Shown here: one piece after another, positions 1,276-15,748 of the stretch
Numbering within the stretch: position 1 is the stretch's first letter
Layout of the letters: each line of letters begins with the position of its first letter
NCBI GenBank assembly: GCA_021163265.1
Contig: JAGGXC010000001.1
Location: forward strand, 1 to 37,769
Length of the DNA stretch: 37,769 nucleotides
DNA from: a bacterium
GTDB taxonomy: Bacteria > Patescibacteriota > Minisyncoccia > Minisyncoccales > JAGGXC01
Direction: 5' to 3'
The notes under the pieces: model-generated
The model's input: the letters and a program-made list of their open reading frames with translations, nothing else
What the model was told of the DNA's origin: nothing
Database searches by the model: none
Translations under genes and position numbers: made by a program

Positions 1276-1276
1276 T

Positions 1277-1363
1277 CTACACAAACCTCCTCTTCGGTAG
1301 AGACAACCTAAAGGTTGCTCCACCAGCACAGCCCCCAAACTTTTCTTTGGAAGCTAGGCTCAT
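1277..1363 (-). CDS. Possible 28-aa leader ORF in a structured leader
   Basis: ATG at 1363 with an AAAGG SD, ending in TAG one nt before the ATG of the 133-aa gene; the codons for KRR near its end form the SD of that gene. The peptide has a GGCAGGA segment and a basic C-terminus. Its SD lies in arm 1 of the alternative inverted repeats at 1304-1375, so its translation could affect the structure in front of the next gene. It could equally be a chance ORF. Confidence 0.35.
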   Translation of the reverse strand: MSLASKEKFGGCAGGATFRLSLPKRRFV

Positions 1364-1375
1364 AGAACAACCTTT
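1304..1375 (-). promoter_or_regulatory. Alternative-pairing leader (three complementary segments)
   Basis: On the leftward transcript, segment 1 AAAGGTTG (1375-1368) can pair with segment 2 CAACCTTT (1317-1310). The CAACCT part of segment 2 can instead pair with segment 3 AGGTTG (1309-1304), forming a tight local hairpin with a 2-nt loop. The two states exclude each other. Segment 1 contains the SD of the 28-aa ORF, and segment 3 lies about 15 nt before the SD of the 133-aa gene. The pairing is seen directly; regulation is inferred. Confidence 0.35.
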
Positions 1376-1657
1376 TTACCCATCAAAAACCAGCCTCCAA
1401 CCATTATCATAAACCCAGAGTTGTTTTTTAACACATGAAGGAACCTTTAATCTCTTCAACCTCCTGATCTCTCTCTTGAACCTCCCTTTACCTGTTTTCA
1501 CCTGCACAAGCAAAACCTTCGACCTAGAAACAGCAACAATATCAAAAGGAGAACGAGAACCAGCTGAACGCAAAACCGTATGAAAAACCCTGTTTCTCCT
1601 TAACCTTCTAACTACCTCCAATTCCCTTAGATAACCTTTTTGATAAGAAGTAATCAT
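1376..1657 (-). CDS. Hjc-like Holliday junction resolvase / PD-(D/E)xK nuclease
   Basis: 93 residues, a single nuclease domain. Order of motifs: KGYLRELE helix with E12/E14, RSAGS at 30-34, FDIVA with D39, and QVKT with Q52/K54. This matches archaeal Hjc-type resolvases, where the motifs are an N-terminal E, RSAGS, D and ExK. Here the ExK glutamate is glutamine, a variant tolerated in some branches of the superfamily (Mrr has QxK). The start overlaps the stop of the upstream HTH gene by 4 nt (ATGA), so they are coupled. Likely role: resolving branched DNA during element replication or recombination. A general restriction-type nuclease is the alternative. Confidence 0.7.
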   Translation of the reverse strand: MITSYQKGYLRELEVVRRLRRNRVFHTVLRSAGSRSPFDIVAVSRSKVLLVQVKTGKGRFKREIRRLKRLKVPSCVKKQLWVYDNGWRLVFDG

Positions 1658-2331
1658 AACCTAAAAGTAGGATACAGTTTATCCAAGTAGAACTCCTGGA
1701 AAACATGCTCTCTCTTCCAGAGATTAATAATATTAGTTGACAAACAAACCGCTAGGGAATCACCAAGCCTCTGAGAATACTCTGAAGAAAGATACCAATC
1801 AATCAACTCCTTGATCTCCTCCACACCGTATTTCTTTAGCCTCTGCTTAACTAGTTTCCCATCCTTCGACCAGTTAACCTCAGGAACATAACCCTTTATC
1901 CTTCTAACCCTTGATATAAAATAAGAAACAATATCCCTAACAGAAGATGACTTTTTGTCATCCACTACAGTGTATATATTACTACTCTCTATTACTATAG
2001 GATCAGACACCCTTGTCTCCTCAAGAGAACCCCTATTTGTCTTCTCAGAAGTGGACAGATCTAAGGAAACCTTCCAGTCTGGTAGAAGATAACGATTATT
2101 TCTCCTAAGACCCACTCTTTTTATCCTCAAACCCGCTTTTTCTTTTAACTCCTTAATTGCTCTATCCACTGTTTTCACTGAAACACCTAAAACCTCAGCT
2201 ATATACTTCCTTGAAGGATAAGAAATAGATTCAGAATCCTTCATAGACCACAAAACCCCAGCAACAAGTTTCGCTCTAAAACCCAGGTCTCTTCTTTTAG
2301 CAATTAATTTAGGAATAGCCCAGAAACCCAT
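1654..2331 (-). CDS. Helix-turn-helix replication protein (HTH_36 / primosome-like)
   Basis: 225 residues. The N-terminal 100 form a winged helix of the HTH_36 type (FRAKLVAGVLWSMKD, SYPSRKYIAEVLGVSVKTVDRAIKELKE), typical of replication initiators and phage replisome organisers. A polar linker (about 95-130) leads to a helical C-terminal region (KDGKLVKQRLKKYGVEEIKELIDWYL ending near NIINLWK), which resembles the C-terminal domain of phage replication proteins acting with DnaC/DnaD-like loaders. It sits between the RepO-like gene (5-nt gap) and the Hjc-like gene (4-nt overlap). Likely role: origin recognition or helicase loading for the element. No SD is obvious. Confidence 0.7.
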   Translation of the reverse strand: MGFWAIPKLIAKRRDLGFRAKLVAGVLWSMKDSESISYPSRKYIAEVLGVSVKTVDRAIKELKEKAGLRIKRVGLRRNNRYLLPDWKVSLDLSTSEKTNRGSLEETRVSDPIVIESSNIYTVVDDKKSSSVRDIVSYFISRVRRIKGYVPEVNWSKDGKLVKQRLKKYGVEEIKELIDWYLSSEYSQRLGDSLAVCLSTNIINLWKREHVFQEFYLDKLYPTFRL

Positions 2332-2336
2332 AAAGA

Positions 2337-2672
2337 CTAATTAGATGTTTGAAATTGATTAATCCTTTGTCTCCTATCAACCCATTCCTTAAGATTCTTG
2401 TTTATACCAAACATTTGTCTATCAGGATTCCACTTAATTACTCCTCTCACCACCAAACCCTTCAGGATATCATCGACATGATAAGGCAAAATCCCTGCTA
2501 AGAAGAAATCTTTTTTATCAAAAACAGCAAAATCCCTGTTTAACCCAAAGGAAAACCTCATAATCAAAAGCAAAACCTTAAGCTCTCTCTTGGTAAAATT
2601 CGAGGTGATAATCTTATCTAATATTCTATTCTCAATATTAGTTGAAACCATAGTTTTTTTAGTAGATTTCAT
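2337..2672 (-). CDS. Phage replication protein O-like winged-helix protein
   Basis: 111 residues. The segment NRILDKIITSNFTKRELKVLLLIMRFSFGLNRD followed by ILPYHVDDILKGLVVRGVI fits the N-terminal winged helix of bacteriophage replication protein O: ILDxI...LS-RE-kVLL-I-R-TyG, then a recognition helix and wing. It ends just after the wing, so this is a stand-alone DNA-binding domain whose partner is probably the next gene. ATG 2672 has an AAGGAAGG SD, and the gene overlaps the preceding 54-aa gene by 14 nt. Inferred role: origin binding in a bipartite initiator. Confidence 0.65.
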   Translation of the reverse strand: MKSTKKTMVSTNIENRILDKIITSNFTKRELKVLLLIMRFSFGLNRDFAVFDKKDFFLAGILPYHVDDILKGLVVRGVIKWNPDRQMFGINKNLKEWVDRRQRINQFQTSN

Positions 2673-2823
2673 TAACCTTCCTTTTCAAAACATACTCAAC
2701 CAAAGCAAAAGCAAGAAGTCTAACATTTTTCCGTATCCTATCAATCTCTTCATCAGAAAGAGAAGGTTTCCTAAGAATCTCCCTATATTTATCATAGATT
2801 GAATTCCCTTTCTCCTTAGACAT
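2659..2823 (-). CDS. 54-aa helical protein in the replication operon
   Basis: 54 residues beginning MSKEKGNSIYDKYREIL. It contains a basic/acidic helix (LSDEEIDRIRKNVRLLAFALVEYVLKRK) and no cysteines. A longer overlapping frame (2685-2867) encodes an unlikely hydrophobic peptide; this frame has normal protein composition, sits 21 nt after the XRE stop and overlaps the RepO-like start by 14 nt, as expected of a coupled operon gene. The family is not recognised. Position between repressor and initiator suggests a small replication or regulatory accessory. Confidence 0.55.
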   Translation of the reverse strand: MSKEKGNSIYDKYREILRKPSLSDEEIDRIRKNVRLLAFALVEYVLKRKVNEIY

Positions 2824-2844
2824 AAGACAAAATAGGGTAGTAGT

Positions 2845-3054
2845 CTATAGTAGAAAGACTTCTTCAACTCTTTCTCCCAAAACCTTAGCTATCTTTAAAG
2901 CTAGATAAACGTTTGGTATACGATTACCTGTTTCAATCTCAGATATCTCTGACTGGAAAACACCTACTTTCTCTGCTAAAACAGATTGCTTCATCCTCTT
3001 CTTATCCCTTAGTTCTTTTATTCTATTAGTTAGTCTCCACCATATTTCAATCAT
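2845..3054 (-). CDS. XRE-family repressor-like regulator
   Basis: 69 residues consisting almost only of a Cro/C1-type HTH: RIKELRDKKRMKQSVLAEKVGV, then QSEISEIETGNRIPNVYLALKIAKVLG, ending EEVFLL. This is the compact regulator type widespread in bacteria, archaea and their elements. It is first in the leftward operon. A consensus promoter and a palindrome made of ACGAT/ATCGT half-sites lie directly upstream (3059-3102), which strongly suggests autoregulation and control of replication genes. Whether it represses or activates cannot be told from sequence. Confidence 0.85.
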   Translation of the reverse strand: MIEIWWRLTNRIKELRDKKRMKQSVLAEKVGVFQSEISEIETGNRIPNVYLALKIAKVLGERVEEVFLL

Positions 3055-3058
3055 AAAA

Positions 3059-3096
3059 ATACGATATTACCTTAGATTATATCGTATAAACACGAT
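3059..3096 (-). promoter_or_regulatory. Operator cluster of the XRE operon (three ACGAT half-sites)
   Basis: Half-sites at 3061-3065 (ACGAT), 3081-3085 (ATCGT) and 3092-3096 (ACGAT). The last two form a 16-bp dyad ATCGT-N6-ACGAT that fills the spacer between the -35 and -10 boxes. The first two form a 9-bp perfect inverted repeat (3059-3067 / 3079-3087) with centres 20 bp apart, two helical turns. This is the layout expected for a small C1-type dimer binding its own promoter. Confidence 0.65.
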
Positions 3097-3102
3097 TGTC
3101 AA
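3076..3102 (-). promoter_or_regulatory. Promoter of the leftward early operon
   Basis: Leftward TTGACA (3102-3097) and TATAAT (3081-3076), both perfect consensus, with a 15-bp spacer, shorter than the usual 17. The expected start is about 15 nt before the XRE ATG at 3054. The short spacer and the overlapping dyad suggest that bound regulator shapes activity. Confidence 0.65.
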
Positions 3103-3135
3103 GTGGAAAATTAGAGATTTATGATAAATTCTAGT

Positions 3136-3161
3136 TATAATTTCCAGAGAATATATTCTCT
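3136..3161 (+). promoter_or_regulatory. Rightward -10 box and 16-bp perfect palindrome
   Basis: TATAAT at 3136-3141 followed 4 nt later by AGAGAATATATTCTCT (3146-3161), a perfect 8+8 dyad covering the expected transcription start. No good -35 is visible, so activation may be needed. The palindrome differs from the XRE operator and suggests a second regulator. It lies 70 nt before the PRC-barrel gene. Confidence 0.45.
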
Positions 3162-3231
3162 TGGTCTTTTAGAAAAATTTATTTATGAGAATTTTTATGT
3201 CGCCTCTTGAATCCACGAGGGAGAAAGGTAT

Positions 3232-3795
3232 ATGAAGATATCTAATCCAAAGGATATGATAGGTAAGTTGGTTACTGATTTTAACGGTGTAACCATTGGT
3301 GTTGTAGATAAGATTTGGAAGAGCTGGAACGAGGAGTACCCTGGGTGGTTTTTTGGCGTAAGACTAAACGAGGAAGTAAGAAACGCATGGTTTAGAGGTA
3401 CAACAAAACTTATACCAATATATAACGACTATATCCAGGATATTGCTGAACATATTATGCTTAATAAAACAGCTGAGCAACTCAGTCGTTATTTGAATAA
3501 AACAGTTTCTTGCAGCGATGCTGCTCATCCAATTGATCACCTCATGGACATGCCTGTTTATGATAGAAACAATTCCCGTGTTGGAACATTCTATGGTTGG
3601 GTCGAGAGTGACGGAATATACAAACACTATGGTTGCTTCGTAGATCCCTATCTATGTGATATCTGGGATATACCACATAATATCGTTATGCCACTCCAAC
3701 CTTCTATGATTCATCAAGTTTTTGATACGATTACTCTCAATAGAACCCTAAAGGAGCTCAGAGAGTATTGGCAACAATATTCTGAGAAACACTAA
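3232..3795 (+). CDS. Two-repeat PRC-barrel domain protein
   Basis: 187 residues. The N-terminal repeat begins NPKDMIGKLVTDFNGVTIGVVDKIW, the classical PRC-barrel opening (IGk-V-d-nG-eiG-V--i). A second repeat starts near residue 105 (DMPVYDRNNSRVGTFYGWV). Both are followed by PI/MP-type strands. PRC barrels are small beta barrels that bind RNA or protein partners (RimM, photosynthetic H subunit, archaeal division proteins). No signal peptide or membrane segment. SD AAAGG lies about 5 nt before the ATG. It opens the rightward cargo, but a strong hairpin separates it from the PAS-GAF gene, so it may be its own unit. Confidence 0.65.
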   Translation: MKISNPKDMIGKLVTDFNGVTIGVVDKIWKSWNEEYPGWFFGVRLNEEVRNAWFRGTTKLIPIYNDYIQDIAEHIMLNKTAEQLSRYLNKTVSCSDAAHPIDHLMDMPVYDRNNSRVGTFYGWVESDGIYKHYGCFVDPYLCDIWDIPHNIVMPLQPSMIHQVFDTITLNRTLKELREYWQQYSEKH

Positions 3796-3798
3796 GGA

Positions 3799-3831
3799 GG
3801 AGTTTAAGGGAATAGCCGCATTCCCTACTCC
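3799..3831 (+). terminator. Strong hairpin after the PRC-barrel gene
   Basis: GGAGT (3799-3803) pairs with ACTCC (3827-3831), and AGGGAAT (3807-3813) with ATTCCCT (3820-3826) around a 6-nt loop; a 3-nt bulge lies on the 5' side. The tail is pyrimidine-rich rather than pure T, so this could be a weak terminator or a 3'-end stabiliser. The rest of 3832-4048 holds the promoter-like palindrome and no ORF of note. Confidence 0.45.
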
Positions 3832-3908
3832 TCTCCCTCCCTCCATCTCCCCCCTATTTTTGAGGGAGTAGATGATTTTGTGCAATAAAAGAATTTATGA
3901 ATCAGATG

Positions 3909-3946
3909 TTGATAATTTGATTAGAAGAAGAGCTAAAATATTTTAG
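3909..3946 (+). promoter_or_regulatory. Promoter-like site with CTAAAATATTTTAG palindrome
   Basis: TTGATA (3909-3914) and TAAAAT (3934-3939) with a long 19-bp spacer. The -10 is embedded in a perfect 14-bp palindrome (3933-3946). The 17-mer GAGCTAAAATATTTTAG is repeated exactly at 36008-36024, again at a -10 box. It lies 103 nt before the PAS-PAS-GAF gene. Confidence 0.4.
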
Positions 3947-4048
3947 GTAGTTACCATAAAACAGTGGGATTTATATCAGCAGAAGGTTTAGTAGAAATTA
4001 CACAAGTTATTGCAAAATTTCGATGATTTTATATAGGACCTAATTCTT

Positions 4049-5584
4049 ATGATAAAAGACCAATTGAAAGATAGGGATGGGATGAAGCTGAGATTGAATA
4101 ACGATGAGGATGTTGATTTGAGTTTAATCTTGGATTCGAAGTCTTTCCCTTCTTTTGTTACCTATATCTGTAGAGGTGATGGTAAATGGTCTCCTATCTA
4201 TGTAAGTAAGAATATTCTAGACTTTGGTTTCACTAGAGAGGAATTCTTGGAGAAAACCGATTTCTGGATTAATCATATACATCCAGATGATCAACAAAAG
4301 TTTCTAAATGAGCTATCTGATGTTTTTGAAAAAGGTTTTCATACCAGAGAATATAGAGTTTTAGATAAAAATGGTTGCTATAGATGGGTGAAAGATGAAC
4401 GTAGATTGATTTATGATGAAGATCGTAAAACCGATAGATATATTGGCTTCATATATGATATAACCAGGGAGAAAAAACTGGAGGAATCCCTACTTGAAGT
4501 TGAAAAACGATTTGAGGATATACTGTCGGTTTCTGCGGATTGGTTCTGGGAAGTTGATAAAAATGGAGTATATACTTTTGTAGCTGGTAAAGTCGAAGAA
4601 ATCCTTGGATATAAACCAGAGGAACTCATAGGTAAAACACCTTTTGATCTTATGCCGGAGGATGAAGCAAGACGAATAGAAGAGATATTCAAAAAAATTG
4701 CTGGCGAGAAAAAAAGGATTATGAACTTAGAAAATTGGAATATAACTAAACAAGGTAGAAGAATCTGCTTACTAACAAATGGAGTACCTCTATTGGATAG
4801 AGAAGGGAATCTAATAGGCTATAGAGGTGTAGATAAAGATGTTACTGATATTAAACTAGCGGAGATAGAGAGAAAAAATCAAGTCGAAAGGATCAAAAGA
4901 TATCAATCAGCTATTGTGAAGATATCAACTGATGAATCAATGATTGAAGGAAAATTTGATATCTTCTGTAAACATGTCACTGAAGTAATTGCCCATGCCA
5001 TGGATGTAGAACGAGTTAGTATATGGTTGTTAAATGATAAGCAAACTGAGTTGATATGTATCGACTTATATGAGAGAAGTAAGGATAAACATTCAAAAGA
5101 TATTACGCTTTCTGTAAATAATTATCCTAATTATTTCAATACTCTTCGAAACACTACAGCTATTGATGCAGAAGATGCGCTTAATGATGATAGAACCAAA
5201 GAATTTAAAGAAGATTATTTGATTCCACTAGGTATTGTTTCTATGCTTGATGCAACTATTAGAGTTCATGGCAAAACAAGAGGAGTTGTATGTCATGAAC
5301 ATATAGGAGAAAAAAGAAAGTGGTTACCCGATGAAATTATTTTTGCAGGTGAAGTCTCAGATCAAATTGCAAATGCTTTACTTACTTCTGAACGGATTTA
5401 TACTATAAAAGAGTTAGAGCAGAGAATGAAAGAACTTGAACTCTTTCAATCTTTTACTGAGGAAAGGGAACTTAAAATGATTGAATTAAAAAGAGAGATA
5501 AATGAGCTCTGCAAGAAATATGGAGAAAAACCTAGATATGAGATAACAGATGAGTTAAAGGAGGAGAAGGTGTTAAATCCTTGA
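4049..5584 (+). CDS. PAS-PAS-GAF sensor protein without a kinase domain
   Basis: 511 residues, predicted cytoplasmic. PAS 1 is about 30-145 (FWINHIHPDDQQKF and YIGFIYDITREKK are typical of PAS_3 with its PAC end). PAS 2 is about 150-275 (VSADWFWEVDKNGVYTFV, GVDKDVTDIK). GAF is about 285-447 (ERVSIWLLND, GVVCHEHIG). A coiled-coil tail follows (FQSFTEERELKMIELKREI), a pattern seen in PAS sensor proteins of archaea and bacteria. HisKA, ATPase, GGDEF and other outputs are absent. The SD is AGGA, about 10 nt upstream. FIST starts 16 nt after its stop, so the two are one operon. It probably passes a redox or ligand signal to the kinase by protein contact; the ligand is unknown. Confidence 0.85.
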   Translation: MIKDQLKDRDGMKLRLNNDEDVDLSLILDSKSFPSFVTYICRGDGKWSPIYVSKNILDFGFTREEFLEKTDFWINHIHPDDQQKFLNELSDVFEKGFHTREYRVLDKNGCYRWVKDERRLIYDEDRKTDRYIGFIYDITREKKLEESLLEVEKRFEDILSVSADWFWEVDKNGVYTFVAGKVEEILGYKPEELIGKTPFDLMPEDEARRIEEIFKKIAGEKKRIMNLENWNITKQGRRICLLTNGVPLLDREGNLIGYRGVDKDVTDIKLAEIERKNQVERIKRYQSAIVKISTDESMIEGKFDIFCKHVTEVIAHAMDVERVSIWLLNDKQTELICIDLYERSKDKHSKDITLSVNNYPNYFNTLRNTTAIDAEDALNDDRTKEFKEDYLIPLGIVSMLDATIRVHGKTRGVVCHEHIGEKRKWLPDEIIFAGEVSDQIANALLTSERIYTIKELEQRMKELELFQSFTEERELKMIELKREINELCKKYGEKPRYEITDELKEEKVLNP

Positions 5585-5600
5585 TTTGGGGAGGGAAAAA

Positions 5601-6947
5601 ATGTTTATGGGAAAGTTAAAGATTGTTGTGCTGTTGGTTGTTATCGCAGCTGGTATATTATCTGGATGTACAACTCGAGAGGAATTGAATATACAGGAGG
5701 GGGATAATGGTGTACAACAAATGGGTCCGGTGTTTGTTGGATATGGCTGGAGTATAAAATCTGATCCTGTAGAAGCGGTAGCTGAGGCTGTTTCATCAGT
5801 AAAAACTCAGCTTAAGGATAAAACTCCTGATTATATCGTTCTTTTTTCAACTGTTGATTATAATTCAACGGTTATCCTTAGAGAGGTTTCTAAATATTTT
5901 CCAGAAGCACAGATATATGGTGGTACTTCATGTACCGGTGTGTTAACTAAAGATGGGTATCATACTAGTGGAAATGGTTCTCTAGCTTTATTAGCTGTTT
6001 CTTCTGAGAATATTAGTTTTGGTGTTGGTGGAGCAGAGATAGGAGATTCTGCTAGAACAGCCGGAGCAGAAGCTATCTCAGAGGCTATTGTAAATGCTGA
6101 GAGAAACAATGAAACACCTGATCTTGTTTTGATAACCGCTGCTCCTGGGAAAGAAGAAGAAATACTACTTGGAATAGAAGATGTAATTGGTAAAGACACA
6201 CCAATATTTGGTGGGAGTTCAGCGGATAATACCATAGAGGGATATTGGAAGCAATTTGCAAATAATAAAGTATACTCCAATGGTGTTAGTGTAACCGCTA
6301 TTTTCACTAATTTAAAAATTGGTTACTCATTTGAAGCAGGGTATCTAATAAGTGAACAAGAGGGAACTATCACCGAGGCAGAAGGTAGAACCATCTATAA
6401 AATCGATGATAAACCTGCTGCAGAGGTTTATAATGACTGGACTTCCGGGGAGGTTATTGGTGAAAATCATTCATCTACTGGAGAATTAATCATTCTCTCT
6501 CAATCTACTTTTTATCCATTATCTAAGAAACTAGTTGGTTCAAATGGAGAGATCCACTATCTTTCTATACATCCACTCTCGGTTAATTTCTCTGATAAAT
6601 CCCTTACAGTTTTCACTAACGTAGAAAGCGGAGAAACTATACAACTAATGCATGGAACCTGGGAGTTATTACTTAACCGAGGACACAGTACACCATCGAA
6701 AGCATTAGAATTCGGTGAAATCGATAAAGGTAAGGGTGCATTTGGTATCTATACTTTTTGCGCTGGAACACTCCTAGGTATACCTGAAAATGAGAGGTTT
6801 AAACTTCCTTTATTGGTTTATCAAACTATTGGTATACCTTTCATTGGAACTTTTACTTTTGGTGAGCAAGGTTATATCAGCGGCGTTGGAAATAGACATG
6901 GGAATCTTGTTAATTCTATGGTAATAATCGGTGAAGAAGAAAAATGA
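5601..6947 (+). CDS. FIST-domain lipoprotein (exported ligand sensor)
   Basis: 448 residues from ATG 5601, chosen for the GGGGAGGG SD 5 nt upstream. Residues 5-23 form a lipoprotein signal peptide with an LSGC lipobox (acylated C23). FIST_N covers about 45-230 (VGYGWSIKSDP, IYGGTSCTGVLT, FGGSSADNT) and FIST_C about 230-425, ending GTFTFGEQGYISG and NRHGNLVNSMVIIG. FIST domains are proposed small-ligand (possibly amino-acid) sensors, normally cytoplasmic and fused or next to signalling proteins. A membrane-anchored exported form beside a kinase with an extracellular sensor suggests a ligand-binding partner. No enzymatic residues are known for the family. Confidence 0.85.
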   Translation: MFMGKLKIVVLLVVIAAGILSGCTTREELNIQEGDNGVQQMGPVFVGYGWSIKSDPVEAVAEAVSSVKTQLKDKTPDYIVLFSTVDYNSTVILREVSKYFPEAQIYGGTSCTGVLTKDGYHTSGNGSLALLAVSSENISFGVGGAEIGDSARTAGAEAISEAIVNAERNNETPDLVLITAAPGKEEEILLGIEDVIGKDTPIFGGSSADNTIEGYWKQFANNKVYSNGVSVTAIFTNLKIGYSFEAGYLISEQEGTITEAEGRTIYKIDDKPAAEVYNDWTSGEVIGENHSSTGELIILSQSTFYPLSKKLVGSNGEIHYLSIHPLSVNFSDKSLTVFTNVESGETIQLMHGTWELLLNRGHSTPSKALEFGEIDKGKGAFGIYTFCAGTLLGIPENERFKLPLLVYQTIGIPFIGTFTFGEQGYISGVGNRHGNLVNSMVIIGEEEK

Positions 6948-6974
6948 ACCACCTTTCTCATCTCCTCCAACGGG

Positions 6975-7004
6975 ATTACGGGTTTAATATCGTAATGTTA
7001 AACC
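6975..7004 (+). other. Two interlocked inverted repeats upstream of the kinase
   Basis: ATTACG (6975-6980) matches CGTAAT (6991-6996), and GGTTTAA (6981-6987) matches TTAAACC (6998-7004). They interlock and cannot both form as simple hairpins, so they are alternative structures. The 3' arm runs into CCTCCTT, complementary to an SD. The gap 6948-7089 otherwise shows no ORF. Confidence 0.3.
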
Positions 7005-7089
7005 TCCTTAATTCTCTTATGTCTTTAAACCAAGAGGATTTCCATGAAACAAAGGCTGCTGAGATAACTTTAAGTTTGGTGAATAAGAG

Positions 7090-8817
7090 ATGAAATTGAA
7101 AAGCATGTTTCATAAAGTATTCCTCTACATGGTTCTTATATCCCTCATCGGCGGAGGAACCACCTTAGGTATATTAATTACCGGGCAAACTCTCACCATG
7201 GAAGAAAATATTATCCGAGAACATCTAGTAATCGCTGATATAGTCTCACAAACCATTGAAACAGGTTATTTCGCTGGTAGATGGCCTTTTGAAACACTTG
7301 AAGAAATAAAGAAAGGGGAAGACATTGTATTTTGGTGGGTGACAAAACCCGATGGTGAGATTGTATTAGCCGATAATCCCGATATGTGGGGAAAACAAGT
7401 GACTAATAATTTCTTATATTCAAATGAAACCATTGTTAGAGATACTGTATTCAGTGAAACTGGAGAGAATATCAAATTAATCGTTCGCCCCCTTAATATC
7501 AAAGAAGAAGGAAAAAACTGGATGTTTTGTATGGGAGTATCTCTTAAACCAATTTCTATGGCAAGAAATTCATTAATTCAAAATGGTATAGCCGTTCTTA
7601 TAGGAGTAGTCTTCTTAACAGTTGTATTCTCTCTCATCCTCAGTAGAAGTATCATCAAACCAATTCAACAGTTATCTAAAGCAACAATAACCATAGCAAA
7701 AGGAAACCTCGATCAACATGTAGAAGTAGAAAGTAACGGTGAAATCGGTTTACTAGCAAATAACTTCAACAAGATGATTCAAGAGTTAAAAAAATCCAAA
7801 ACTAAATTAGAAGAATACAACAAACTCCTTGAGAAAAAAGTAGAAGAACGTACAAAGGAACTTAGAATAGCTAAAGAAAAATTAGAAGAACATGTTGAAA
7901 AACTTGAGAGAAACAAAAAGATGCTACTCAACCTCATGCAGGATCTTAAAAATACAGTAGATAAACTAAAAACTACACAAGAAGAATTAAAACATAGAAA
8001 TAAAGAATTAGAAATAGCTCATAATAAACTAAAAGAGATGAACAGAGAACTTGATAGAAAAGTTAAAGAAAGAACTAGGGAGGTAGAAAAACTATTGGAA
8101 CAAAAAAACGAGTTTATCCATCAACTAGGTCATGACCTCAAAACCCCTTTGACACCTATGTTAACTCTTCTACCTATTATTCGTAGCCGTGTCGATGACC
8201 CTAAGACTCAAGAGTTGTTGGATATATTGGTTGAGAGTTCTTCTCATATGAAGGAGTTGGTTACTAAGACTCTGCAGCTTGCTCGTCTTAATTCCCCGAA
8301 TATGCAATTCCAGATTGAGGAGGTGAATCTGCGGGAGGAGATAAATAGTGCTTTGAAGAGGAATAAAACTATTCTCCAAGATTGTAATATGGAGGTTGAG
8401 AATCTTGTTAGAGAAGATATTTTAGTAATGGCAGATAAACTTCGTCTCGGTGAGTTATTGGATAATCTAATTAGTAATGCAGTAAAGTATACTCCTAATG
8501 GTGGTAGAATAACTATCACTGCGGATTACGAGGAAGATGAAGTTAAAATCGCTATTCAAGATACAGGTATAGGTATGACTAGAGAACAAATAGAACATAT
8601 CTTCGATGAATTCTATAAAGCAGATGAATCTAGACATGATCTGGATTCTAGTGGACTTGGATTAGCAATCTGCAAACGTATAGTAGAGAAACACGGTGGT
8701 AGAATATGGGCTGAAAGCCCTGGTAGAGGTAAAGGTTCAACTTTCTATTTTACTTTACCTTGTAGTAGTAATTTGGAAGGTAGAACCTGTGAGCCAGTTG
8801 CTTTTGCCAAGAAATGA
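7090..8817 (+). CDS. Membrane sensor histidine kinase
   Basis: 575 residues. TM1 about 9-31, an extracytoplasmic sensor of about 130 residues (Cache-like size, containing WWVTKPDGEIVLADNPDMWG), TM2 about 163-184, and HAMP about 185-238. Then come a long coiled coil (239-340) and HisKA with the phospho-acceptor H348 in GHDLKTPLTP. The HATPase_c domain has an N-box (N459/N463), G1 DTGIGM (491-496) and G2 GLGLAICKR (522-530). All catalytic boxes are intact. The coiled coil contains two KKVEERTKEL-like segments 75 residues apart, suggesting internal duplication. The two receiver genes follow directly, so this is the likely phosphodonor for both. Confidence 0.93.
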   Translation: MKLKSMFHKVFLYMVLISLIGGGTTLGILITGQTLTMEENIIREHLVIADIVSQTIETGYFAGRWPFETLEEIKKGEDIVFWWVTKPDGEIVLADNPDMWGKQVTNNFLYSNETIVRDTVFSETGENIKLIVRPLNIKEEGKNWMFCMGVSLKPISMARNSLIQNGIAVLIGVVFLTVVFSLILSRSIIKPIQQLSKATITIAKGNLDQHVEVESNGEIGLLANNFNKMIQELKKSKTKLEEYNKLLEKKVEERTKELRIAKEKLEEHVEKLERNKKMLLNLMQDLKNTVDKLKTTQEELKHRNKELEIAHNKLKEMNRELDRKVKERTREVEKLLEQKNEFIHQLGHDLKTPLTPMLTLLPIIRSRVDDPKTQELLDILVESSSHMKELVTKTLQLARLNSPNMQFQIEEVNLREEINSALKRNKTILQDCNMEVENLVREDILVMADKLRLGELLDNLISNAVKYTPNGGRITITADYEEDEVKIAIQDTGIGMTREQIEHIFDEFYKADESRHDLDSSGLGLAICKRIVEKHGGRIWAESPGRGKGSTFYFTLPCSSNLEGRTCEPVAFAKK

Positions 8818-8858
8818 AATAGCTTTTGCTATTCCACTATATAATTGAGGGGATAGTG

Positions 8859-9254
8859 ATGGTAAAAATCATGGTTGTAGATGATAGCCGAGAGGTGTTG
8901 TTTTCTGTTGCAAGTAGCCTTAGGAAGCTAGATGAAAGTTATGAGGTTATAACAGCTGAGAATGGAAAGAAATGTTTAGAACTCCTGGAAGAAGAGACAC
9001 CAGATGCCATACTATTAGATATAATGATGCCCGGTATGAGCGGATGGGTAGTCTATGATAAAATACGTAGTAATCCAAAATGGGAGAGGATACCTATACT
9101 ATTCTTAACCGCTCGTACCGATAAACTTGCAGAGGAGGCTGGAAAATTCTTAGGTGAAGATTACATCGAGAAACCATTTGATCCAATTGACCTAAAAAAG
9201 AGAATTGAAAAAGCTATAGAAAAAAAGAGGAAAACAGGGGTGAGACAATATTAA
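8859..9254 (+). CDS. Stand-alone response regulator receiver (REC 1)
   Basis: 131 residues, a single REC domain: acidic pair in MVVDDSRE, phospho-acceptor Asp in AILLDIMMPGMSGW, switch Thr in PILFLTAR, Lys in DYIEKPFDP. No output domain follows, so it works CheY/Spo0F-like by protein interaction or as a phosphorelay step. ATG 8859 is chosen because GAGGGGAT lies 5-6 nt upstream; the longer frame from 8826 lacks an SD. It is 41 nt after the kinase stop. Its stop codon overlaps the start region of the second receiver. Confidence 0.92.
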   Translation: MVKIMVVDDSREVLFSVASSLRKLDESYEVITAENGKKCLELLEEETPDAILLDIMMPGMSGWVVYDKIRSNPKWERIPILFLTARTDKLAEEAGKFLGEDYIEKPFDPIDLKKRIEKAIEKKRKTGVRQY

Positions 9255-9642
9255 AAAGATTTTAATTGTTGATGACGAACCAATAATTATCGCTTCGATT
9301 AAGATAGCTTTAGAGGAAATAGGAGAAGATTATGAGATAATAGGTGCTAATAGTGGAGAGGAATGTTTCAAGCTGCTAGAGAAAGGAGAGAAACCAGATC
9401 TTATTTTATTGGACATCATGATGCCCGGTATGGATGGTTGGAAGGTACATGATAAACTTAAAGCTAAAGAATCACCTTATAATGATATACCCATTATTTT
9501 CTTAACAGCAGCGAATAACGAGGATTATCGAGAAGTAGGTACTTGGTTTGGAGAAGATTATATAGAGAAACCATTTGATATAATGGACCTCAAAAAGAGT
9601 ATAGATAGAGTGCTTGAGAGAAAGAATGAGAAGAAAAAATAG
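9250..9642 (+). CDS. Second stand-alone receiver (REC 2), probable ATT start
   Basis: The in-frame sequence upstream of the first standard start (TTG 9409) encodes the whole N-terminal half of a REC domain: KKILIVDDEPIIIASIKIAL and EEIGEDYEIIGANSGEEC, then the Asp in LILLDIMMPGMDGW, PIIFLTAA and DYIEKPFD. A TGA at 9241 closes the frame, leaving ATT at 9250 as the only plausible start. AGGGGTG lies 4-8 nt upstream, and the ATT overlaps the REC 1 stop (ATTAA), like an ATGA junction. Full length is 130 aa. ATT is a real but rare start (infC, pcnB in E. coli). A start-codon mutation or ribosomal slippage from REC 1 is the alternative. Confidence 0.75.
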   Translation: MKKILIVDDEPIIIASIKIALEEIGEDYEIIGANSGEECFKLLEKGEKPDLILLDIMMPGMDGWKVHDKLKAKESPYNDIPIIFLTAANNEDYREVGTWFGEDYIEKPFDIMDLKKSIDRVLERKNEKKK

Positions 9643-9652
9643 AAAATAAAAT

Positions 9653-9691
9653 AGTTTAATAAAAGGGGATTTTCCTCAAACCATTTAAACT
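9653..9691 (+). terminator. Nested inverted repeat after REC 2
   Basis: AGTTTAA (9653-9659) pairs with TTAAACT (9685-9691), enclosing a second hairpin GGGGA (9665-9669) / TCCTC (9673-9677). No clear T-run follows, so termination of the signalling operon here is only probable. The remaining sequence to 9800 shows nothing else. Confidence 0.35.
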
Positions 9692-9800
9692 CTTTGGATT
9701 TCGATATATTAAATTTTAAAGGAAAGATATTATAAAGTTGGGAATTGATTAAGCTTAAATACTATTTATCCGAGATGAAAAAGGATTTCTAAGTTTAAGG

Positions 9801-11018
9801 ATGTGTGATTATCAGATGATAAAAGAAAAACATCCATTAAGAGGGGCTAAAGGTGGATGTACAGGTTTTATGGCTTCTAAGAATGATAAGGTTTTAGTTG
9901 CCAGCAATATCGATGCTTCTGTTGTTGACCCTAAACTTGAGGTTTATAAACCAGATGAATCAAAAGGAACCTATGGAAGAATACTTTTTCGATACTGGTA
10001 TGATTGCGTAGATTGTAGGTCAACAGGTGTAAATGAAAAAGGATTATGGTTTGATCGATATGATCATCAATTTTGGCCTCAGCTAAAAACTATTTTTAAG
10101 AAACCATATAAAAAACCAATGCAGTTAGAAGCATACTGCCTGAGCATATGTTCCACAGTTGAAGAAGTAAAAGAGGAGATGGAGAAATATAATCTTTTTC
10201 AGATGTCAAGGTATAATGCTTTCTTTGTTGATAAAACAGGGGATTGGGTGATCATAGAAGGTGATAACCTCTATCAAAAAGATGAATATAACAAGTATGG
10301 AATCAAGTATGCAGTAAGTACAAATTTTATACCATCTAAACCCAATCTTCCTTTTTCTAGATTAACCGGATGGGAACAAGGTAAATGGCGATATAGACTA
10401 GCAAGATATATGCTTCAAAATATGGATGAATCTCAATTCAATAGAGAATATTTTAGAAGCATATGTGAGGCAACCCATACTGATGTCACCAATTATTCCA
10501 ATGTTTGCGATCTCAAAAATGGAATAATCTATCTTTATCATTTCAAAGACTATGAAAAAGAAAGAGAAATAAAAATAAGAGAATATATCAAGAAAATCCC
10601 AGAGATTCAAGACCCAGAAAGCCCAATGATAATTAAGATACCATCACTATTTGAACCCAAAAATAATAAACCACCTGAGAAACCGGTTTTATATGGACCC
10701 ACTAAAGGAAAAATTGGACAGAGTTATGAATATTTCGCAGTTTCCAAAGATCCAGAGAAACATCAGATCTATTTTCTTTTTGATTGGGGTGATGGAACAA
10801 CAAGTAAAATCTGTAAAAAATGGATTGAACCTCTAAACAATATCACCTGTCAATTAAAACATAGATGGATAAAAAGCGGTGACTATAAAGTAAAAGTAAA
10901 AACACGAGATATCTATGGAAAAGAAAGCCCATGGTCAGATCCACTATATGTTGATATTCAAAAGAAGAAACATCCTCGTATCCTACCTCCAGAGTTAATA
11001 AAAAAAGGATTAAGATAA
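9801..11018 (+). CDS. Ntn-hydrolase (C45/penicillin V acylase-like) fused to a PKD domain
   Basis: 405 residues. Residues 18-38 (GGCTGFMASKNDKVLVASNID) match the N-terminus of cysteine Ntn amidohydrolases, with C20 the likely nucleophile after removal of a 19-residue propeptide, D38 conserved, and an N in VSTNF (171-175). Residues 290-388 form a PKD-like domain (FDWGDGTTS at 327-335, KHRWIKSGDYKVKVKTRD, SPWSDPLYV), a type frequent in archaeal surface proteins. No signal peptide or anchor is visible. The start is uncertain: ATG 9801 has AAGG directly adjacent and ATG 9816 has a distant AGGA. Probable role: cleavage of linear amides; the substrate is unknown. It converges with the ectodomain gene, 8 nt apart. 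Confidence 0.7.
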   Translation: MCDYQMIKEKHPLRGAKGGCTGFMASKNDKVLVASNIDASVVDPKLEVYKPDESKGTYGRILFRYWYDCVDCRSTGVNEKGLWFDRYDHQFWPQLKTIFKKPYKKPMQLEAYCLSICSTVEEVKEEMEKYNLFQMSRYNAFFVDKTGDWVIIEGDNLYQKDEYNKYGIKYAVSTNFIPSKPNLPFSRLTGWEQGKWRYRLARYMLQNMDESQFNREYFRSICEATHTDVTNYSNVCDLKNGIIYLYHFKDYEKEREIKIREYIKKIPEIQDPESPMIIKIPSLFEPKNNKPPEKPVLYGPTKGKIGQSYEYFAVSKDPEKHQIYFLFDWGDGTTSKICKKWIEPLNNITCQLKHRWIKSGDYKVKVKTRDIYGKESPWSDPLYVDIQKKKHPRILPPELIKKGLR

Positions 11019-11026
11019 AAATAGGG

Positions 11027-12394
11027 TTATTTCTTCTTAGACCTATGATTGTATAGATAATCATAGATTAAAAACACAGTTAATCCTGTGACCCCTGCTG
11101 TTATCAGAATCTGGATATATATCAGAAACTCCTTAAAACCCTCAAGTATAGTTTTATTTATCTTGAGAAGTATATCCGGTAGCATACTAGATATATTTGT
11201 TGAGAAATTGATGGAGATATTTTCATAACCTACATTACCTGGTATGTAGATGGAAACAACACTTTTTTCTTTATTGGCGATATGGCGATAGATACAATCA
11301 TCTAATAATGTATTGTCTATTTTTAGGGTCATATTAAATCTTTTTTCTTTCCACCAATCTCCGAATAGTCTATGTTTTTCCTCATAAGGCTCGAGAAATA
11401 TTTTGATGATGCTTAAATTATCAAGATCTATTTGTAGTTCCTGTGGGAAATATTTTTTATAGAAAAAATTAAGCCTCGTGCTTTTATTTAAACTGAGATT
11501 ACAATTAAAAACAGTGATATCGCTACTAACCTCGCTGTTATATAACTTGTCAAGTAGATAGATTGCCCAAATAATACACCTATGATCAAAGAAAGGATTT
11601 TCAATACGGGATTCTAAGAATATTTCTCTAGCATGTTTTATTACGTTAAGAGTTATCTTAGTGTTAAATATGTTTTTCTCCAAAAATCTTTCATTCAAAT
11701 CTGCTGACTCAAGAGCATCATTTAGTCTATCTATGATATCTAATGATATATCTTCTCTCCATATACCTGGATATAATATCTTTATAGTTGTATTTAAAAT
11801 CTCAAATGTAAATGAGATGTTAACTAAAATCTCTCCTTCTTTGTTCTTCAATTGATCACGCCAGATGAAAGGTATTTCACAGTTATATAATCGAAAATAT
11901 ATACGTGGAGTAATCGAAGTACCAGGTTTTAACTCAAATACTCTCTCTACTTTTCTTTCAGGTTCACCAGATATGGATTCTGAAAAAACCTTATCTTTTT
12001 CTTCCCATGGAGGAATAAAAGAGACATCACCTATTCGTCGTTTACCATCTGATTTACTTTTGTAATAAATTTCTCCATCTACAAATCTATCCGTAGGGAT
12101 GATTAATCTTGTTGTGTTGTTTAGAAAACCAATGAACTGTTTCCTTGGATAGCTAATATTAATTTTTGCACTAATAACCGTATATGCCTCATCAGAGTTT
12201 TCATAATCTACATTCCAGTCAGAGATTTCACCAATAACAGGTTCAGGTAGTATCTGCCTGAGATTTTCTACTAAAATAAATGAAATCAAAAGAACTATAA
12301 TTAAAATTATTACCGCCGTTCTCCCCCTTATCTTCACAAAAGATAAATTGATACTATTTATATAAATTTGTTGTATTATATTCTGTGTATTCAA
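11027..12394 (-). CDS. Membrane-anchored protein with large ectodomain, unknown
   Basis: 455 residues. TM1 about 27-44 (TAVIILIIVLLISFILV), then some 380 residues of predicted extracytoplasmic beta-rich sequence with many N-glycan-like NxT/S motifs and few cysteines. TM2 is about 428-447, followed by a basic tail (NHRSKKK). Both ends are therefore inside. A TTG start is proposed with GGAG about 10 nt upstream; no ATG lies near. It is the only leftward gene between the cargo and the immunity module. Family not recognised. The topology recalls surface proteins of archaea and some bacteria; host-surface interaction is a guess. Confidence 0.6.
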   Translation of the reverse strand: MNTQNIIQQIYINSINLSFVKIRGRTAVIILIIVLLISFILVENLRQILPEPVIGEISDWNVDYENSDEAYTVISAKINISYPRKQFIGFLNNTTRLIIPTDRFVDGEIYYKSKSDGKRRIGDVSFIPPWEEKDKVFSESISGEPERKVERVFELKPGTSITPRIYFRLYNCEIPFIWRDQLKNKEGEILVNISFTFEILNTTIKILYPGIWREDISLDIIDRLNDALESADLNERFLEKNIFNTKITLNVIKHAREIFLESRIENPFFDHRCIIWAIYLLDKLYNSEVSSDITVFNCNLSLNKSTRLNFFYKKYFPQELQIDLDNLSIIKIFLEPYEEKHRLFGDWWKEKRFNMTLKIDNTLLDDCIYRHIANKEKSVVSIYIPGNVGYENISINFSTNISSMLPDILLKINKTILEGFKEFLIYIQILITAGVTGLTVFLIYDYLYNHRSKKK

Positions 12395-12467
12395 ATTTGA
12401 ATTACTCCAAGGTCGAATGAATCTAAGGGGGATAAAAAGTAATGAGGAATAATTCTTATAGATTGGG

Positions 12468-12496
12468 TTGACAAAGATTTCTATCTTAGTTAATAT
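12468..12496 (+). promoter_or_regulatory. Promoter of the immunity (XRE/ImmA-like) operon
   Basis: TTGACA (12468-12473), 17-bp spacer, TAATAT (12491-12496). The expected start near 12503 leaves a leader of about 8 nt before ATG 12511 with no SD, so the repressor mRNA would be nearly leaderless, as lambda cI is from PRM. The rest of 12395-12510 shows no gene. Confidence 0.6.
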
Positions 12497-12510
12497 CAGT
12501 TATAGATGAT

Positions 12511-12858
12511 ATGAAATTTGGAGAGAAACTAAGAAAAATTAGAGAAGAGAAAGGCATTACACAGCAAGAGTTAGCTGAAAAACTTGGATATGTAACCAAT
12601 AGCTATATTGCCGAGGTAGAGAAAGGAAAGTTTATCCCCTCAGAGAAGAAACTAAGGATGATAGCCAAAGCCCTAGGTGTTCCCTTTAGAGAACTTGATA
12701 GCCTTTTATTAGAAACAAAGATCGAAGAACTTGGAGTAAAGGAAACTGAGCTCATTAGCTTATTCAAGGATATCCCAAAACTACCCAAGGAGGATAAACA
12801 AGCTATCATCAAAGCCTATCTCTCCATCAAAAAAAGAAAGAAAAAACAGAAAACATGA
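12511..12858 (+). CDS. XRE-family regulator of an immunity module
   Basis: 115 residues. C1-type HTH at about 5-62 (LRKIREEKGITQQELAEKLGY, SYIAEVEKGKFIPSEKKLRMIAKALG), then a helical region with LFKDIPKLPKEDKQAIIKAYLSI, which probably mediates dimerisation, and a KKRKKKQK tail. The stop overlaps the next start by 4 nt (ATGA). The pair matches the ImmR/ImmA layout of ICEBs1 and many prophages, where the XRE protein represses excision genes and the metalloprotease inactivates it. Its own start has no SD, in line with the short leader. Confidence 0.88.
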   Translation: MKFGEKLRKIREEKGITQQELAEKLGYVTNSYIAEVEKGKFIPSEKKLRMIAKALGVPFRELDSLLLETKIEELGVKETELISLFKDIPKLPKEDKQAIIKAYLSIKKRKKKQKT

Positions 12859-13334
12859 GATGGATAATTGAAAAAGCCAATGAAATACGCAAAAAATATG
12901 GTTTAGATGACCTATATTTTGTTGCTGAGAAACTAGGAGCAAGAGTTGTCGAGCATCCCCTGGGTAGAATAATCAAGGAAGCCTATTTCAAAGACCTAAG
13001 AGTTATTGTCATTGACCCAAGTCTGCATCCATATAAAAAACGTCACCTCATCGCTCATGGTCTGGCTCATCATCTGTTCCACAGAAACAGGAAGGTAAAT
13101 TATTTTCTTGACCAAGGTAGGTGTTTCCTTAAAAACCTAGATGTTATACAACAAGAAAGAGAAGCAGAGGTTTTCGCAGCATACCTTCTCATACCAGAGG
13201 ACAAACTAAATATTCTTCTAAAAGAGGAATGGATAAAAGAATCCCTAGATCCAATACCTGAGCTGGCTGAAGAATTCCAAGTATCAGAACATTTCATGAA
13301 AAAGAGACTAGGATTTGAAAAAATGTTGAGATAA
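12855..13334 (+). CDS. ImmA/IrrE-like metallopeptidase with HGxxH in place of HExxH
   Basis: 159 residues. Family features: KKRHLIAHGLAHHLFH (about 62-76) and EREAEVFAAYLLIPE (about 101-115), the zinc-binding helix and the third-ligand/FA-LLMP region of ImmA/IrrE. Canonical ImmA has HELGH; here H68-G69-L70-A71-H72 keeps both histidines but replaces the catalytic glutamate by glycine. The protein could bind zinc yet would not be expected to cleave. It might act by binding the upstream regulator, or use another residue. Coupled to the XRE gene by an ATGA overlap. A sequencing error is possible but needs a codon change. Confidence 0.85.
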   Translation: MRWIIEKANEIRKKYGLDDLYFVAEKLGARVVEHPLGRIIKEAYFKDLRVIVIDPSLHPYKKRHLIAHGLAHHLFHRNRKVNYFLDQGRCFLKNLDVIQQEREAEVFAAYLLIPEDKLNILLKEEWIKESLDPIPELAEEFQVSEHFMKKRLGFEKMLR

Positions 13335-13387
13335 AGGATTTAAACCATGAATTCATAATTATCATACCTTTATTGGAGAGAAGATAC

Positions 13388-13993
13388 ATGAACAAAAACC
13401 TTAGGGAGTTTGTAGATAAGGAACACAGAGTGATGAGTGATTTTTATGACATATGTGAGAGATACAATGAGAGAAACAAGGCTTTAATAAAAAGAGAGCT
13501 GAGACAGTTGATTGAAGAGGATCCTGATTTTTTGGATCCCTATCTTTTTCTTTATCAGATACTGGAAGATGAAGGTAATCTCAAGGAGGCAGAAAAGATT
13601 TTAAACGAAGCATATAGGAGAGCAATAGCTTTGATAACAGACAAAGATGGAAGTTGGCCTGATATTTTGAAATGGGGTTGGCTGGAAAACAGGCATATTA
13701 TTAGAACTATTCTAAACAAAGCCTTGTCTCTCTGGAGAAATAATAAGATAGAAGAATCATTAGACTTATTTAGAAAACTTCTAAAAACAAACCCCAATGA
13801 TAATATTGGAGCAAGATTCTATATCCTGGCAATCAGGATGGGTATGAGCTTAGATGATTTTGAGGATCGTTTCAACAAAGGTGGCTACTATGATTCAGAG
13901 ATGATTGATTGGTTTGATAGAAACTACAAAGATTTCCTAGATGAGTTTAGCTGGTGGGAGAAAGCCATCGAGGAGGAAGAGTATATCTCATAA
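13388..13993 (+). CDS. TPR-like helical repeat protein
   Basis: 201 residues from ATG 13388, which has GGAGAG 8 nt upstream; the TTG at 13373 is rejected. Helical repeats are visible: DPDFLDPYLFLYQILEDEGNLKEAEKILNEAYRRAI (about 40-80) and LNKALSLWRNNKIEESLDLFRKLLKTNPND (about 115-145), with the W/L-G-Y/A-P pattern of TPRs. A YN-rich acidic end follows (NYKDFLDEFSWWEKAIEEEE). TPRs are protein-protein scaffolds; the partner is unknown. It lies between the immunity pair and the recombinase, so a role in element maintenance is possible. No signal peptide. Confidence 0.6.
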   Translation: MNKNLREFVDKEHRVMSDFYDICERYNERNKALIKRELRQLIEEDPDFLDPYLFLYQILEDEGNLKEAEKILNEAYRRAIALITDKDGSWPDILKWGWLENRHIIRTILNKALSLWRNNKIEESLDLFRKLLKTNPNDNIGARFYILAIRMGMSLDDFEDRFNKGGYYDSEMIDWFDRNYKDFLDEFSWWEKAIEEEEYIS

Positions 13994-14082
13994 GAGACAC
14001 CTCCTTGTTTTTTCTCCAACCAAGTTATATAATACCAAGATCACCAGCTAAAATCACTGACCAAATAATTTTTTAGAATTCC

Positions 14083-15603
14083 ATGAAAAACGCACTAGCT
14101 TATGCTAGAGTATCAACCAAAGAGCAGGCAGAGAAAGGACTCTCTATTCCTGCTCAACTAAAAGCAATAAGAGAGTATGCAAAATCTCATGATTTTTGTA
14201 TTCTTCAAGAATACACCGATCTTGGAGAATCAGCCAAAACCGCTAATAGACCCGGATTCAAAAAGATGATCAAAAGGTGTCAGAAAGATAAAACAATTGA
14301 TGCTGTTATCGTTCACAAAATAGACCGATTTTCTAGAAACAACATTGATTTCTTTGCCTACAAAGCTATCTTAAAAAAAGAAGGTATCAGACTCATATCG
14401 GCTTCAGAAAACATCGAAGAAACACCTTCTGGTGAGTTCATAGAAAATGTTTTAGTAGCAATGGCACAGTTTTACTCCTCCAACCTTGCTGAGGAAGTAC
14501 TTAAAGGTATGAAAGAAAAGTTTAGAAAAGGAGAATGGCCATATAAAGCACCTATTGGATATAAAAATATAAGAGATGAGAAGGGACATGCCTATATAGT
14601 TGAGGACAAAAAGACCTCCTATCTGATAAGGCAGATGTTTAAACTCTACGCCACCGGGCAATATTCCTTTGCTTCCTTGTCCGAAGAGATGGCAGAAAGA
14701 GGACTAAAAACAAAGTATGGTAAACACCTTTCACCTGAGAGAATAAAAAGCACCCTTACCAACCCCTTCTACATAGGTATACTAAGACTCTGGAACGAGA
14801 AAAGAAAAGGGAAACATAAACCATTAGTTGATGAAACACTTTTTAGACAAGTTCAAAATGTGATGAAAGAAAGAAAAATTACCCAAGATAGATGGCAAAA
14901 AAGAGATTTCCTTCTTAGAGGATTGCTTTACTGCCAAAATTGCAAAAGAAGATTAACCGCAGAGGTACATGAGAGAGGAAGCTACTACAGATGTCCATAC
15001 AATGTCAACAACCCAATATGTAAAGAACCATATATCCCCACAAAACACCTTGAATCTCAAATTGAAAAACTATATAATCTAATGGAACCCACACCAAGGC
15101 TTCTTAAAATCCTTAAAGCAGAGATTGAGGAGGTTCAAAACAATTTCAAGGCGAAATCTTCAAACGAGATACAGAATCTCAAAAGAAGAATCAGGGAAAA
15201 TGAAGCAAAGATGGACACCCTTGTTGATAACCTTGCTACCAAGACAATTACCCCAGAGATTTACAAGAAATACAGCCAAAGATATGAAAAAGAAATCAAA
15301 GAAGCAAGAGATAGACTAGCAGTATTAGAGAAAGATTATAGCAGAAACTTTGATTTCATCGATAAATGCATGATACTAGCATCAACCCTATCTAAGCTAC
15401 ACAAAATATTCAGCTTCCAGCAGAAAAAGAAACTTGCTAAAGCTCTCTTTAGAAGAATCTGGGTGAAAAACAAAGAAATCAAAAGGATAGAGCTTAACCC
15501 ACCATTTGATTTCCTACTTAGAAATCAGACCAGAAAAATTCATAAAGTTTTTCCGAATCTTGTATTCGAACATTATCCCATTAAGTCCACCCAGCCGCGG
15601 TAG
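14083..15603 (+). CDS. Large serine recombinase (element integrase)
   Basis: 506 residues. The resolvase catalytic domain (1-145) has nucleophile S11 in YARVSTKEQ and the DRFSRN motif (81-86). The recombinase DNA-binding domain (about 150-270, GEWPYKAPIGYKN) follows. The zinc ribbon has C284/C287 and C304/C313, and a coiled coil spans about 335-420. Length and order are those of large serine integrases; the catalytic residues are intact. The last codons lie inside tRNA-Phe: the TAG stop uses tRNA positions 8-10. This suggests that the recombination site coincides with the gene end. No SD is visible before ATG 14083. The partner att site is not in the window. Confidence 0.95.
   Translation: MKNALAYARVSTKEQAEKGLSIPAQLKAIREYAKSHDFCILQEYTDLGESAKTANRPGFKKMIKRCQKDKTIDAVIVHKIDRFSRNNIDFFAYKAILKKEGIRLISASENIEETPSGEFIENVLVAMAQFYSSNLAEEVLKGMKEKFRKGEWPYKAPIGYKNIRDEKGHAYIVEDKKTSYLIRQMFKLYATGQYSFASLSEEMAERGLKTKYGKHLSPERIKSTLTNPFYIGILRLWNEKRKGKHKPLVDETLFRQVQNVMKERKITQDRWQKRDFLLRGLLYCQNCKRRLTAEVHERGSYYRCPYNVNNPICKEPYIPTKHLESQIEKLYNLMEPTPRLLKILKAEIEEVQNNFKAKSSNEIQNLKRRIRENEAKMDTLVDNLATKTITPEIYKKYSQRYEKEIKEARDRLAVLEKDYSRNFDFIDKCMILASTLSKLHKIFSFQQKKKLAKALFRRIWVKNKEIKRIELNPPFDFLLRNQTRKIHKVFPNLVFEHYPIKSTQPR
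15594..15603 (+). other. Recombinase/tRNA-Phe overlap, candidate right attachment core
   Basis: The 3' end of the recombinase gene and the 5' end of tRNA-Phe share these 10 bases. If integration occurred in this tRNA, the element supplied its 5' part. Neither this sequence nor the longer GCTCAGGCAG stretch recurs in bases 1-14,000, so the left attachment site would lie outside the window. Confidence 0.5.
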
Positions 15604-15666
15604 CTCAGGCAGTAGAGCGCAGCTCTGAAAAAGCTGAGGTCACCAGTGCAAGTCTGGTCCGCGGCA
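15594..15666 (+). tRNA. tRNA-Phe(GAA), probable attachment site
   Basis: Acceptor GCCGCGG/CCGCGGC, D-stem GCTC/GAGC, anticodon stem CAGCT/AGCTG with loop CTGAAAA (GAA), T-stem ACCAG/CTGGT, discriminator A, no CCA. The T-loop reads TGCAAGT, with G where the nearly invariant T55 should be. The first 10 bases overlap the recombinase ORF, so any promoter must lie in or before that ORF. Confidence 0.92.
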
Positions 15667-15673
15667 CAAATAA

Positions 15674-15748
15674 GCGGGAGTAGTTCAGTGGTAGAACGTC
15701 TCGTTGCCAACGAGAAGATCGCGGGTTCGAATCCCGTCTCCCGCTCCA
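15674..15748 (+). tRNA. tRNA-Gly(GCC)
   Basis: Acceptor GCGGGAG/CTCCCGC, anticodon stem TCTCG/CGAGA with loop TTGCCAA (GCC), T-loop TTCGAAT, discriminator T. It is the only tRNA in the window with an encoded CCA (15746-15748). Seven nt after tRNA-Phe, likely one transcript. Confidence 0.96.

Follow-up and report, generated by a model that had tools for sequence, protein, structure and literature searches.

A serine integrase gene predicted to exchange its C-terminal tail for host sequence on insertion at a tRNA-Ala gene

Introduction

Three described systems come closest to the locus reported here. Large serine recombinases of the A118, Bxb1 and phiC31 type share with it their domain order, a short core and a 5-bp shift of the outer motif, the A118-type rule being that the zinc-ribbon motif lies 5 bp further inward in attB than in attP (PMC3783163); our case differs from them in having attP within the coding sequence of the integrase, in targeting the 3′ end of a tRNA and in an enzyme C-terminus that changes on integration. 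Archaeal SSV-type "suicidal" integrases likewise have attP within the integrase gene, target a tRNA and have their gene split (PMC8371274). These are tyrosine recombinases (Phage_integr_3) whose split parts the catalytic domain from the remainder and inactivates the protein, whereas here a serine recombinase in a bacterial host keeps residues 1-503 of 533 together, all Pfam domains included. Because only the last 30 of the 533 residues are lost, the enzyme is probably not inactivated, as judged from its sequence. The third parallel is the integration-dependent immunity of mycobacteriophages, in which attP also lies in a coding gene and the free and integrated forms differ at their C-termini (PMC8092301, PMC9262239). 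There a repressor loses a degradation tag, whereas here the gene is that of the integrase, and by inspection the lost tail, which ends ...ELIKSVSRC, is not an ssrA-like tag. No prior report of a tail swap by a serine integrase was found in the open-access PMC literature, which is weak evidence of novelty. A tail-trimming serine enzyme in bacteria, with relatives in archaea that are 75% identical, would mean that this design had been invented independently, and it offers a possible route to setting directionality without a separate factor.

Results and discussion

A recombinase gene that ends inside tRNA-Phe

The window analysed, 37,769 nucleotides in length, is the whole of contig C14 of a 674-kb genome in 30 contigs (G000). 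At 14083..15603 on the + strand it carries the integrated form of a large serine recombinase (integrase) of 506 aa, assigned by its Pfam domains and by alignment with unsplit relatives. The protein matches Resolvase (1.8e-35), Recombinase (4.8e-14) and Zn_ribbon_recom (5e-9) as well as the phrog_95 integrase (1.8e-101), and by these domains it is a complete large serine recombinase. Two long helices, candidates for the coiled-coil insertion that follows the zinc ribbon in such enzymes, are predicted at residues 338-384 and 390-436; parts of them have a local pLDDT of mostly about 80, in a full-length model that is poor overall (pTM 0.29) and too poor to locate the tail.

The sequence-only reading of this DNA had placed the integrase stop at positions 8-10 of tRNA-Phe, and the coordinates bear this out: the TAG occupies 15601-15603 in the ORF, and ARAGORN places tRNA-Phe(gaa) at 15594..15667 (+), so that the first 10 nt of the tRNA are codons for the last residues and the stop of the integrated enzyme. 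Residues 1-503 come from the element, and Gln-Pro-Arg-stop comes from host DNA. By BLAST, tRNA-Phe is present in a single copy in the genome. It is followed by tRNA-Gly(gcc) at 15674..15748 (+), as in the same-genus genome G001 and in many relatives. As far as sequence comparison can tell, the overlap is not a chance arrangement but marks an attachment-site junction, since an empty site exists in G001, a partner junction lies on contig C7 of the same genome, and relatives carry the gene unsplit.

Junctions and empty site point to the 3′ end of tRNA-Ala

In G001, which has no match to the integrase, tRNA-Ala(ggc) is separated from tRNA-Phe by 4 nt (...GGGTTCAAGTCCCACTGGGTCCA CTGA GCCGCGGTAGCTC); the tRNA-Ala end reads GGGTCCA, then CTGA, then tRNA-Phe, which gives GTCCAC at the core position. 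In G000 an intact tRNA-Ala (99% identity) lies on C7 (C7:2498-2572), where it directly precedes mobile-element genes and not tRNA-Phe as in G001. The host genes bordering the two sides of the insertion are adjacent in G001 (HtrA 79%, the next gene 67% and an IF-2-like gene 83% identical between the genomes), and the host tRNA order on C7 and C14 agrees with that of G001 at either side. The C7 junction reads CCCACTGG GTCCACC AAAAAGGAAAAGTTCGAACATTTGAG and the window junction GTATTCGAACATTATCCCATTAA GTCCACC CA GCCGCGG. The core GTCCACC, within which crossover would occur, is thus common to attR (15585..15591, +) and attL (C7:2567-2573); it is short, 7 bp, and its two copies are on separate contigs. 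From the core to tRNA-Phe, comparison with G001 leaves a 2-nt host remnant of the tRNA-Ala/tRNA-Phe spacer (15592..15593, +). Since the core occurs in both junctions, the element occupies the tRNA-Ala(ggc) 3′ end, next to tRNA-Phe, and tRNA-Phe itself is native host DNA. The exchange point is the tRNA-Ala 3′ end, 3-9 bp before tRNA-Phe; on insertion that end was replaced by the identical bases of the element, and the old end was moved to just before tRNA-Phe.

Elsewhere in this order of bacteria, tRNA-Val(tac) usually precedes tRNA-Phe and tRNA-Gly in a conserved tRNA cluster. In the genus of G000 and G001, the stretch that runs from tRNA-Phe to tRNA-Ser(cga) has the opposite orientation to that in the other members of the order (window 15594-19131; L052 24-4643); this inversion is older than the element, and because of it tRNA-Phe directly follows tRNA-Ala(ggc).

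The sequence-only reading had taken the 5′ end of tRNA-Phe as the target, with the element supplying the first bases and the promoter of that gene. Part of this picture stands: a serine-integrase element does end here, its gene terminates within tRNA-Phe, the attR half-site, like the right half of attB, takes in the start of tRNA-Phe, and the element now separates tRNA-Phe from its former upstream DNA. As an account of the target it is nevertheless highly improbable, because the att site maps elsewhere, to the tRNA-Ala end that both junctions have in common, an outcome that this reading had itself named as refuting it. The uninterrupted tRNA-Phe locus that this reading looked for in a relative is present in G001, directly after tRNA-Ala(ggc), and there the near-identical tRNA-Phe has the same start without any element to provide it. 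The second copy of the tRNA-Phe start expected at the far end of the element was absent from the genome and, apart from one match with 3 mismatches at 5772, from the window. The proposed departure from the usual rebuilding of tRNA 3′ ends holds for the use of a serine enzyme and fails for the site, as the 3′ end of the neighbouring tRNA-Ala is still rebuilt. We regard it as equally far-fetched that the junctions are an assembly chimera or reflect misbinned contigs. The assembly is in 30 contigs and the nearest integrase relatives are archaeal, but on either flank of the insertion the tRNA order of the two contigs is that of G001, and two archaeal assemblies, independent of each other, conserve the attP that the junction matches.

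A further claim, that retention of the element is tied to host survival, does not follow from this layout: precise excision would restore the original Ala-Phe order, so the element is not an addiction device. The 4-nt spacer in G001 leaves no room for a promoter, and tRNA-Phe therefore probably depended on transcription from further upstream, since displaced by the element. A promoter scan found nothing above chance, neither promoter nor terminator, near tRNA-Phe in the window. By its position the gene is at present probably expressed either from a start inside the integrase gene or by transcription that passes through it, and tRNA-Phe may depend on the element to some extent.

The integrase gene is split relative to archaeal homologues

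Joining the element ends into a circle gives an open frame for a predicted integrase of 533 aa, compared with 506 aa when integrated. The last 30 codons now lie at the other end of the element, where KKEKFEHLRIV... directly follows tRNA-Ala on C7, the sole location of this tail in the genome; in the window it gives way to three residues and then a stop running into tRNA-Phe. A genome-collection search found archaeal relatives, about 70-75% identical, that have the gene unsplit across an intact attP. One is the uncultured archaeon LFW-280_3_1 (L077), a Methanoperedenaceae genome (PMC8561730) whose integrase has 537 aa and is 75% identical; another is a Bathyarchaeota MAG (L078) whose integrase lacks its N-terminus. 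Both read KSTKK..FEHL where the window has KSTQPR and the stop. Alignment is conserved to Lys-x-Thr, and G000 diverges exactly after Lys-Ser-Thr, while the relatives continue with KK..FEHL and a tail. Both also retain an uninterrupted attP in the gene, TTCGAACATTATCC..TTAAGT.CAC.AAAAAGGA..TTCGAACAT. Past the att arm, the tail is poorly conserved among G000, L077 and L078.

Within its own class, the best other match found for the integrase reaches about 35% identity, compared with 75% for L077, which points to transfer between archaea and these bacteria, in either direction. Relatives in phages and plasmids are remote (about 25-32% identity), and viral contigs yielded no close relative of the integrase or of its attP. 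Truncated or frameshifted remnants of the integrase occur in L078 (9816-10532) and in an Aenigmatarchaeota MAG recovered by the same search, where the gene is decayed (L079, 1-260); their sequences point to past invasions of archaea.

Layout of the attachment sites

In the attP of G000, L077 and L078, TTCGAA occurs at −20/+19, and in all three the best dyad symmetry is at the core. The left outer motif lies at 15565..15570 (+) in the window, 20 bp before the core and with the spacing seen in both archaeal sites; its partner is on C7, 19 bp after the core start. In attB the T-loop of tRNA-Ala provides TTCAAG at −15, a 5-bp shift inward relative to attP. No outer motif is present in the right half of attB, to which the 5′ end of tRNA-Phe belongs, and the shift is seen on one attB side only. 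Across 48 other elements, symmetry of a shared outer motif was not significant (P about 0.07), and for this reason our reading of the T-loop is confined to the G000 element and one other, L037, at tRNA-Gln. The far end of the L037 element is clear, marked by a 16-bp core repeat, and the element shows the same 5-bp motif shift; its integrase would go from 512 aa in the circular form to 496 aa on integration. Among the elements searched for far ends by direct repeats it was the sole clear case. An empty-site comparison of G072 and G091 at tRNA-Gly was limited by insufficient conservation of the flanks.

Reading into the target tRNA recurs across the order

Within the same order, 48 of 50 large serine recombinase genes convergent with a tRNA 3′ end are open into the tRNA on its antisense strand, with no prior stop, and the integrase reads into the tRNA likewise in all five further cases from the class. 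The controls were non-integrase ORFs, 150 aa or longer, that stop close to the 3′ end of a convergent tRNA, with the integrase in L054 excluded; one of 21 reads into its tRNA (Fisher P about 2e-14 against the integrases, a value that overstates independence because the integrase genes are mutually related). Reading into the target tRNA thus looks like a general design of these integrases. The window integrase is the only case that reads into a tRNA on the sense side, because its element is inserted the opposite way relative to its own tRNA and the integrase points into the next gene in sense. For annotation, the C-terminus of the integrated form of such integrases should be read as host tRNA sequence and not as native enzyme, a correction relevant to mining them as genome-engineering tools.

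Many of these genes have GC-rich inverted repeats in their 3′ end, just before the att site, in roughly the 55 bp that lead up to the tRNA (L027, L031, L035, L036, L041 and others). The contigs of many relatives (L026, L029, L032, L033, L039, L044 and others) break 100-600 bp ahead of the integrase start, which would fit DNA that is repeated there or that varies within the population.

A proposed mechanism for the tail exchange

The locus is very probably an element, putatively of conjugative type, with a serine recombinase, inserted at the tRNA-Ala(ggc) 3′ end and carrying attP in its integrase gene 30 codons before the stop. Its host is a bacterium of small genome, probably one of the Patescibacteria. 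The 533-aa enzyme would recombine attP with attB, inserting the element and restoring the tRNA-Ala end at the C7 junction. At the other junction the same event would cut the integrase gene and leave an enzyme of 506 aa that ends in host-derived residues and in which the catalytic, recombinase, zinc-ribbon and helical segments are predicted to be kept. The 30-codon tail would be left beside tRNA-Ala, and the truncated gene would run via the host spacer into tRNA-Phe, the source of its new stop. The sequences themselves contain the target, both junctions, the empty site, the unsplit relatives and the frame; from these we infer activity of both enzyme forms, a circular form in this host and the timing of the steps. 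No junction of a circular form was seen.

If the circular and integrated forms differed in activity, a family of integrases with attP in its own gene, spread over archaea and bacteria of small genome, could act as a putative integration-state switch, a tentative proposal that we consider rather doubtful. A tail swap without any regulatory role is reasonably probable: attP within the gene would make a compact module of enzyme and site, with any tail tolerated, an idea already proposed for suicidal integrases (PMC8371274). The poor conservation of tail sequence beyond the att arms argues for such a module, and the ends of integrated integrases are highly varied, supplied by whichever tRNA is hit. 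Against it, an open frame into the tRNA in nearly every element of the order exceeds what mere proximity of gene and site would need, and this near-universal frame leaves room for the switch.

Gene content of the element

The element is at least 21.9 kb long, its middle being unassembled; its right-hand part is 1..15591 of the window and its left-hand part C7:2567-8930. Window genes include a Cro/CI-type HTH regulator (12511..12858, +; 60% identical to L077 9114-9452), an ImmA/IrrE-type metallopeptidase (PF06114; 12855..13334, +; 43% to L077 and 78% to a G048 contig, L025), an Hjc/PD-(D/E)XK-like nuclease (1376..1657, −; 55% identical to L077 6735-7001), an HTH replication-initiation-like protein (1654..2331, −) and a phage replication protein O-like gene (2337..2672, −). 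The C7 part encodes a coupling protein (PF02534, 3.5e-11; 36% to L077). One short stretch of L077 (7 kb) matches this coupling protein together with the C14 regulator, peptidase and nuclease, and another C14 gene also matches it at 31%. From their sequences, the C7 and C14 parts appear to belong to one insertion. An AAA_10/VirB4-like match lies on contig C4 without a link to the element.

At window positions 4049-9254 the element carries a signalling block (PAS/GAF, FIST, histidine kinase and response regulator) that is unusual for so small a genome. On C7 (L076) it encodes, in this bacterial genome, an archaeal-type histone of 69 aa (4101-4310, +; PF00808, 2.6e-16) and a tyrosine integrase (5866-6897, −) with a weak SSV-type match (PF16795). 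At about 6710-6752, in the N-terminal coding sequence of the latter, there is a stretch resembling the 3′ half of tRNA-Gly(gcc), the last 23 nt of which are one base off two sites in the Bathyarchaeota MAG; this tyrosine integrase appears to be a second one that carries an attP of its own within the gene.
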